Shown here piece after piece: positions 14,351-42,764 of a stretch of DNA of 64,000 nucleotides. Source of the stretch: Candidatus Gastranaerophilales bacterium (GTDB lineage: Bacteria; Cyanobacteriota; Vampirovibrionia; Gastranaerophilales; UBA9579); NCBI GenBank assembly GCA_028689995.1, contig JAQVCB010000004.1, positions 1 through 64,000 on the forward strand. The letters run 5' to 3'. A program made the translations under genes and the position numbers. Position 1 is the stretch's first letter; each line of letters opens with the position of its first letter. The notes beneath the pieces were generated by a model. It saw nothing but the letters and a program-made list of their open reading frames with translations. It made no database searches and was not told where the DNA came from.

Positions 14351-14377
14351 TTTTAATAAATAGTTCAAAAGTTTTCC

Positions 14378-14845
14378 ACGTTTGAATCGGTAAATTTGCT
14401 AATTCGTCGGAACAATGTCTAACTATAATGAATTATATAGATCGTTGTTCCTCCTCACCCACAAGGGGCAGAGCAAATTTACCTGTATATGTCGCTCATA
14501 AGAACTGCACAAAACTTTCATATACTACAAAAATTACCTGTTGCTGACAATTATTTTTCATTTATTTTAATTTTGTTTTAGTTAGAAGCTGTCTTGTTAA
14601 AGTTGAATCGCCTTGCCAAGCAAGCCGCTTGCAACTTTAACCGCAGTCCAAAAATCGAGCCTGTATTTATATCATAATTTGATTTTTACATTGTTAGCCA
14701 GACAGGCTCTTAGAAGTTTTTAAAATGCAGAAATTCAGGTTTTTATAGTCAAGATAGTTATATTGTGTGGATATTTATCCGCAACAGGTAATTTTCTACG
14801 TCGATGAAAAGTTTTTAGCATTTCTAATTCGCTTTTTGTTAAATA
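14378..14845 (-). repeat. E1: long modular palindromic element (containing 121-bp insert E1b)
   Basis: Helices GGTAAATTTGCT(14389-14400)/AGCAAATTTACC(14472-14483) and AAAATTACCTGTTGC(14530-14544)/GCAACAGGTAATTTT(14781-14795); homologous to E2 and E3. Confidence 0.85.
14589..14716. mobile_element. E1b: 121-bp insert (14589-14709) inside E1 with 7-bp direct repeat TTAGAAG (14582-14588 and 14710-14716)
   Basis: E2 reads gttttagTTAGAAGtttttaaaatgcag without the insert; insert ends CTGTCTTGTTAA...TTAGCCAGACAGGCTC are imperfect inverted repeats. Confidence 0.75.
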
Positions 14846-14875
14846 TTAAACAATTTAGAATCTTCTAGTTTCAAG

Positions 14876-14983
14876 GAGTCATCTTGAGCGAAGCGGTAGC
14901 GAAGTCGAAAGATCTTACCAAATTTGAAGTAATTTTATAATGTTGGTAAGATACTTCGATTTCGCTCGGCATGACATTTAAAA
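14876..14983. repeat. S1: REP-like hairpin repeat
   Basis: gtcatcttgagcgaagcggtagcgaagtcgaaagatcttacc...ggtaagatacttcgatttcgctcggcatgac; same as S2. Confidence 0.8.
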
Positions 14984-31047: not shown

Positions 31048-31487
31048 AATATTTCAGCCTGTCAAACAGCAGTAATAGCTTACTAGAAATGCTAGAAACC
31101 TTTCATCGGCGGAAAAATAATCCCTTGCGGACAAAACATTATAAACACTTCAGTCGTGAAATAAAAAACTTCAAACAATCGCATTTCTCTTCAGACTCTC
31201 AAACAAAGAAGATAAATAGAGAGCAAAAGATTTATCGGCAAGGGATTATTTTGTAGCATATGAAGGTTTTGTGCAGTTCTTGTAGGCGGTCAAATTAAAG
31301 CAAGTCGGCACTGTCTGAATGCGATAGCGGGAGTGGAGAAAAGTCGAAATGGCTGCGGTCAGCAGGCAGTGTAGACTTTTCGTAACTCGTTCAGGATTTT
31401 TCAATATACTATGTTAGAAGGTATCTTGCTTTATTAAAAATCCGAGTTTGCCTGACATTCGATAAGTTTTACAGGCTGAAAATATTA
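31048..31487 (+). repeat. E4: long modular palindromic element with its own terminal inverted repeats
   Basis: TCAGCCTGTCAAAC ... GTTTTACAGGCTGA ends; inner helix AAAATAATCCCTTGC(31114-31128)/GCAAGGGATTATTTT(31238-31252). Confidence 0.8.
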
Positions 31488-42234: not shown

Positions 42235-42289
42235 GGATTTTATTTTACAATAATATTTTTATTTTTTCATATAAAAGCAAAGATTTTTA

Positions 42290-42630
42290 CGTTTGAATCG
42301 GTAAATTTGCTAATTTGTCGGAACAATGTTGAATTATATTCAAATTTATAGCTTATTGTTCCTCCTCATCCACAAGGGGCAGAGCAAATTTACCTGTATA
42401 TGTCGCTCATAAGAAATGCACAAAATTTTCATATGCTACAAAAATTACCTGTTGTTGACAATCTTCTTTCATTTATTTTATTTTTGTTTTAGTTAGAAGT
42501 TTTTAAAATGCAGAAATTCAGGTTTTTATAGTCAAAATAGTTATATTCTGTGGAGATTATATTCAACAGGTAATTTTTTCCGCCAATGAAAAGTTTTTAG
42601 CATTTCTAATTCACTTTTTGCAAGATATTC
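42290..42630 (-). repeat. E2: long modular palindromic element, empty-site copy relative to E1b
   Basis: Helices GGTAAATTTGCT(42300-42311)/AGCAAATTTACC(42383-42394); AAAATTACCTGTTG(42441-42454)/CAACAGGTAATTTT(42564-42577). Confidence 0.85.
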
Positions 42631-42656
42631 AACAATTTATAATCTTCTAGTTTCAA

Positions 42657-42764
42657 GGAGTCATCTTGAGTGGAGCTATAGCGGAGTCGAAAGATCTTAC
42701 CAATTTTGGAGTAATCTTACAATATTGGTAAGATGCCTCGACTTCGTTCGGCATGACAATAACG
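42657..42764. repeat. S2: REP-like hairpin repeat
   Basis: gtcatcttgagtggagctatagcggagtcgaaagatcttacc ... ggtaagatgcctcgacttcgttcggcatgac. Confidence 0.8.

Follow-up and report, generated by a model that had tools for sequence, protein, structure and literature searches.

A 125-bp MITE of probable IS5/IS1031 type nested within another repeat in a Gastranaerophilales genome

Results

Filled and empty copies of a palindromic host repeat

The window analyzed here, 64,000 nucleotides of contig C39 from a Candidatus Gastranaerophilales bacterium (genome G000), contains two copies, E1 and E2, of a host repeat (Table 1). This repeat, E, is a mosaic in which 43–44 bp inverted repeats surround TTACCTGTTGC/GCAACAGGTAA, together with a separate 12-bp helix (GGTAAATTTGCT/AGCAAATTTACC). 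Copies, located in the window and on contigs C177 and C50, occur in both orientations. The repeat has ragged outer ends, and the E copies compared did not establish a target duplication. A related palindromic repeat, with the E arm TTACCTGTTGC replaced by AATCCCTTGC, was seen at positions 31084–31281 of the window and at loci L063, L064 and L065; its other arm is changed to match, which looks compensatory.

In E1, an extra block lies between two TTAGAAG sequences (14582–14588 and 14710–14716), whereas E2 reads GTTTTAGTTAGAAG at positions 42486–42499, without the block. Both sequences are as claimed in an earlier note on this DNA, and E2 represents a true empty site.

Table 1. Features of the filled host repeat E1, the inserted element and the empty repeat E2 (window coordinates).
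Feature	Position	Strand	Basis
Host repeat E1, filled copy, mosaic with palindromic core	14368–14937	+	
Target duplication, left copy, TTA	14582–14584	+	Exact 3-bp TTA/TAA/TCA in 34/38 copies; empty-site comparison
125-bp MITE, subfamily A, GAAGCTGTCTTGTTAA...TTAGCCAGACAGGCTC (GAAG...GGCTC)	14585–14709	+	Ends the same in independent copies; one copy, at G000:C50, 100% identical
Left terminal inverted repeat GAAGCTGTCTTGTTAA	14585–14600	+	Identity of 16/19 and 15/19 with the ends of the IS in L082 (IS5 family)
Left hairpin, stem GTTAAAGTTG/CAACTTTAAC, top CGCCTTGCCAAGCAAGCCG	14588–14647	+	Fold; compensatory changes across relatives
Right hairpin GAGCCTGT...ACAGGCTC	14657–14709	+	Fold; pairs mostly invariant
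Right terminal inverted repeat, minus-strand reading GAGCCTGTCTGGCTAA	14694–14709	-	12/19 against the module left end; 13/19 and 12/19 against the IS ends
Target duplication, right copy, TTA	14710–14712	+	Exact 3-bp duplication in 34/38 copies
Host GAAG, chance match to the first four bases of the element	14713–14716	+	Present in empty E copies; not after the target in other subfamily-A insertions
Host repeat E2, empty copy; empty site TTAGAAG at 42493–42499	42279–42719	+	

A dispersed family of 125-bp elements

A search of the genome with the module returned at least 36 matches, and a 19-base core pattern gave 43, compared to none for the reversed control pattern. At least 42 distinct dispersed copies were aligned, forming two subfamilies: A, with 11 copies in the alignment that are approximately 93–100% identical to the window copy, in addition to partial copies, and B, with 31 copies in the alignment, approximately 72% identical to subfamily A. 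The E1 module is identical to the copy on C50 and 94–99% identical to others at unrelated sites. Elements start with GAAG in subfamily A and GAAC in subfamily B, and nearly all end in GCTC or GCTTC, regardless of the flank. As GAAG is the start of all subfamily-A copies whose left end is intact, these four bases belong to the element and the unit is 125 bp long, instead of the 121 bp proposed in the earlier note. Subfamily-A copies measure 125 bp and those of subfamily B mostly 125–128 bp; two shorter copies have 107 and 121 bp. Three subfamily-B copies (L130, L156, L161) are 199 bp long, with an extra segment of approximately 72 bp between the two hairpins. The imperfect inverted ends that had been described for the module were borne out (12/19 matching positions), and the right one reads GAGCCTGTCTGGTTAAAAA in relatives.

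Hairpins, distribution and position relative to genes

The module folds as two hairpins, one towards each end, in agreement with the two helices noticed earlier (fold z of -4.2 for the plus strand and -3.7 for the minus strand, relative to shuffles). Across 17 diverse copies, the left stem contains 18 cells changed on both sides, a value as high as this being reached in 0 of 500 shuffles, and sliding the partners abolishes pairing. These paired changes are suggestive rather than conclusive, as the copies are related and five of the nine stem pairs never vary. Full or near-full copies were detected in G001 (same family), G003, G014, G025 and G021, and partial ones in G029 and G004. The interior with its two hairpins is conserved in three or more families of the order, with compensatory changes in the stem. 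The hairpin top is rearranged in some G001 copies. Among the 46 sampled genomes from other families of the order, nothing beyond weak, short matches was seen, and a sample of 147 genomes from the class, from which G001 and G003 are apparently absent, yielded only the source genome and one 31-base match.

Most insertions (36/38) lie outside ORFs of at least 100 aa, where approximately 10 would be expected by chance. Moreover, 13 of 35 intergenic insertions are located within 12 bp downstream of a stop codon, compared to an expected 9% (p = 6 x 10-6), and none within 12 bp of a start, with spurious ORFs adding noise to these counts, as ORFs were called mechanically. This position pattern does not distinguish between target preference, tolerance and function.

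One alternative is a functional role for the module, as a structured RNA or 3'-end element that spread through transposition, with selection keeping both its hairpins and its position after genes. The double changes in the left stem, the interior conserved over several families and the proximity to stop codons are in favor of this explanation, but the invariant stem pairs and the rearranged tops in G001 speak against it, the Rfam scan of the window gave no match, and the form of a U-run terminator is not obvious. In addition, the same position pattern would result from biased insertion or from the removal of harmful insertions, and we consider the functional alternative unlikely. Scans for tRNA and tmRNA found none. 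Possible, if rather doubtful, is an order-wide MITE lineage with its paired hairpins under selection, either because they are read by the transposase or because the transcript works as a 3'-end element immediately following stop codons. If true, the element would persist at gene ends through being tolerated or of use there.

Probable insertion rather than loss, and a second nested copy

The other E copies spanning the junction are E2, C177:85557, C177:42482 and C50:35484, and the site is empty in 4/4. The copy at C177:85557 is the nearest relative of E1, with 98% identity over 120 bp of joined flanks. Because all four are empty, including this nearest relative, E1 appears to be the derived copy, and an insertion into E1, which we infer to be recent, would be the simplest history. 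The empty sites read here are paralogous copies from the same genome, the nearest compared genome belonging to another genus (HNH protein 70% identical). The earlier note had named the opposite history as the one that would overturn it, with E1 ancestral and the module lost from E2 by deletion between direct repeats. A precise deletion between the TTAGAAG repeats would indeed give exactly the E2 sequence, but the same precise loss would be needed in each of four E copies, some of them only about 85% alike, and the module is found 94–100% identical at approximately ten unrelated sites, making this history highly improbable.

A second nested copy was found at C65:21632-21756, inside another, unrelated palindromic repeat. 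The empty paralogues of this site, on C78, C17 and C149, have the sequence AAAAGTTAAAATTT (in one variant, AAAAATTAAAATTT), in which TTA occurs once and GAAG is missing. With the insertions at C65 and in E1, repeat nesting is seen twice. The second host repeat family is palindromic, approximately 95 bp long and of the form GAGACCGCTGCATAACTATAA...GTTATGCATCAGTCTC (L004 on C78, L153 on C17, L137 on C149 and L024 on C65), with one module copy inside. The proposal that modules move, including into each other, is therefore supported for the 125-bp module, with about 42 dispersed copies, duplications and empty sites in two host repeats. A plan common to module and host, in the sense of one family, is not supported: E has its own inverted repeats and 12-bp helix, and no sequence relation between it and the module was seen.

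A 3-bp target duplication

Identical 3-bp flanks (TTA, TAA and one TCA) were present in 34 of the 38 copies with both ends, and matches of four or more bases in none (0/38); three of the other four copies combine TTA and TAA flanks. When the right flanks were shuffled, a mean of 17.6 and a maximum of 30 matches were obtained, and 34 was reached in 0 of 20000 shuffles. In five related genomes, the exact 3-bp duplication was found in 24 of 30 copies. The duplication looked 7 bp long at E1 due to TTA being followed by a host GAAG that coincides with the element start. In the positions following the target, the observed preferences (G 17/38, A 23/38, A 13/38 and G 4/38) predict a host GAAG at about 1% of sites; a single occurrence in 38 copies is therefore not remarkable. 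The first reading, a 7-bp target duplication based on the E1 flanks, which alone match over 7 bp, is thus refuted by the flank comparison of the 38 copies and almost certainly wrong, since GAAG is in no other subfamily-A right flank and is missing from the second empty site, where TTA occurs once. The further copies, direct repeats and empty sites that the note proposed to look for do exist, with duplications of 3 bp instead of 7.

A candidate source of transposase

The genome contains one intact IS5-family element, on C154 (L082), which is 842 bp long, is bordered by TTA on both sides and has one 256-aa ORF; it carries the one intact copy of the transposase in an assembly that is 89% complete and consists of 201 contigs. 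Read on the two strands, its ends are TTA followed by GAAGCTGTTTTATTAAAA and TTA followed by GAAGCTGTTTTGTTAAAA. The ORF scored 195.3 bits against the IS5 transposase model NF033580 (cut-off 110) and 62.9 bits against PF01609 (cut-off 23), as an IS5 DDE transposase. The left end of the module matches the IS ends at 15–16 of 19 positions, and its right end at only 12–13 of 19. No IS with a GAGCC end, the type of the module's right end, was found. Published members of the IS1031 subgroup have TNA targets and exclusively 3-bp repeats, and ISLrh, an example of this subgroup, is 857 bp long with GAACCTGTCTAGTATCT ends (PMC12016507). The targets and duplications, TTA/TTA at the C154 IS and TTA/TAA/TCA at the MITE copies, agree with TNA and 3 bp, and together with the ends they are as expected from the published description for a putative IS1031-like placement of the C154 element.

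Elsewhere in the order, relatives of the transposase carry ends of the same type adjoining TTA/TAA, and the named matches of the transposase search were mostly Candidatus Gastranaerophilales MAGs. Among 60 genomes, six had both MITE and transposase, three only one of them, three only the other and 48 neither (Fisher p = 1 x 10-4), an association that is confounded by descent. G014, G025 and G029 carry the MITE, and the transposase search gave no match there; like the divergent right end and the single intact transposase copy, this counts against the explanation favored here. The C154 IS and a now-lost close relative would be equally compatible as suppliers of the transposase.

Other transposases in the genome (on C118, C137, C127, C27 and C144) were discarded as they are without a matching pair of ends. 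Half-copies in G029, G001, G014 and G025 were also considered as ends of longer transposase-bearing elements; those on C38 and C192 of G025 turned out to be elements of approximately 180 bp, and the others had no convincing far end. Separately, a second end type, GAGGCTGTCTGAAAAGT, was observed next to TTA/TAA at L233, L240 and L245, beside other IS5-like fragments in relatives.

Discussion

The block in E1 is very probably a non-autonomous transposon of 125 bp (MITE), which inserted at TTA with duplication of these three bases and was most likely moved in trans by an IS5-family, IS1031-like DDE transposase such as that of the C154 IS. The copies are short, non-coding, multiple and dispersed, with target duplications and empty sites, as is typical of MITEs. 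The sequences themselves show that the element exists in multiple copies with fixed ends and 3-bp TNA duplications, that paralogous sites are empty, and that the same genome carries an IS whose ends and duplication match. In the proposed mechanism, a DDE transposase of the IS1031-like subgroup, with the 842-bp C154 IS as candidate source, would act in trans on the MITE, which would insert at TTA within E1 and leave TTA duplicated; the chemistry would presumably be the usual one for IS5. The family is a new one of the IS5/IS1031 type in Gastranaerophilales, nested in other repeats; the nesting is real and its kind ordinary.

In our literature search, no paper describing such elements in Gastranaerophilales was found. 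The locus offers a clean, checkable case of a nested mini-transposon in an order of non-photosynthetic cyanobacteria that has received little study, and the IS that probably drives it lies in the same genome. The conserved hairpins and the proximity to stop codons pose a testable question, namely why some MITEs last.

IS200/IS605-type elements have a hairpin near each end and are not known to make a target duplication. The module resembles them in the former and differs in the latter, as it does duplicate its target. Prokaryotic MITEs such as Correia, Nezha and QMITE2 are short, AT-rich and intergenic, with inverted ends, direct repeats and stable stem-loops, and are thought to depend on IS (PMC10969869). 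The module shares these traits, including a probable dependence on an IS; what sets it apart from prokaryotic MITEs in general is a pair of separate hairpins, one near either end, that is conserved in several families of the order. With the IS1031 subgroup of IS5, as represented by ISLrh (PMC12016507), and with its derived MITEs it has in common the TNA target, the 3-bp duplication, GAA/GAG-type ends of 16–19 bp and a candidate autonomous partner of approximately 850 bp with an IS5 transposase. It differs from these IS in lacking coding capacity, in its right end, GAGCC, which diverges from that of the partner, and in a conserved two-hairpin interior, with resemblance to the IS confined to the ends.
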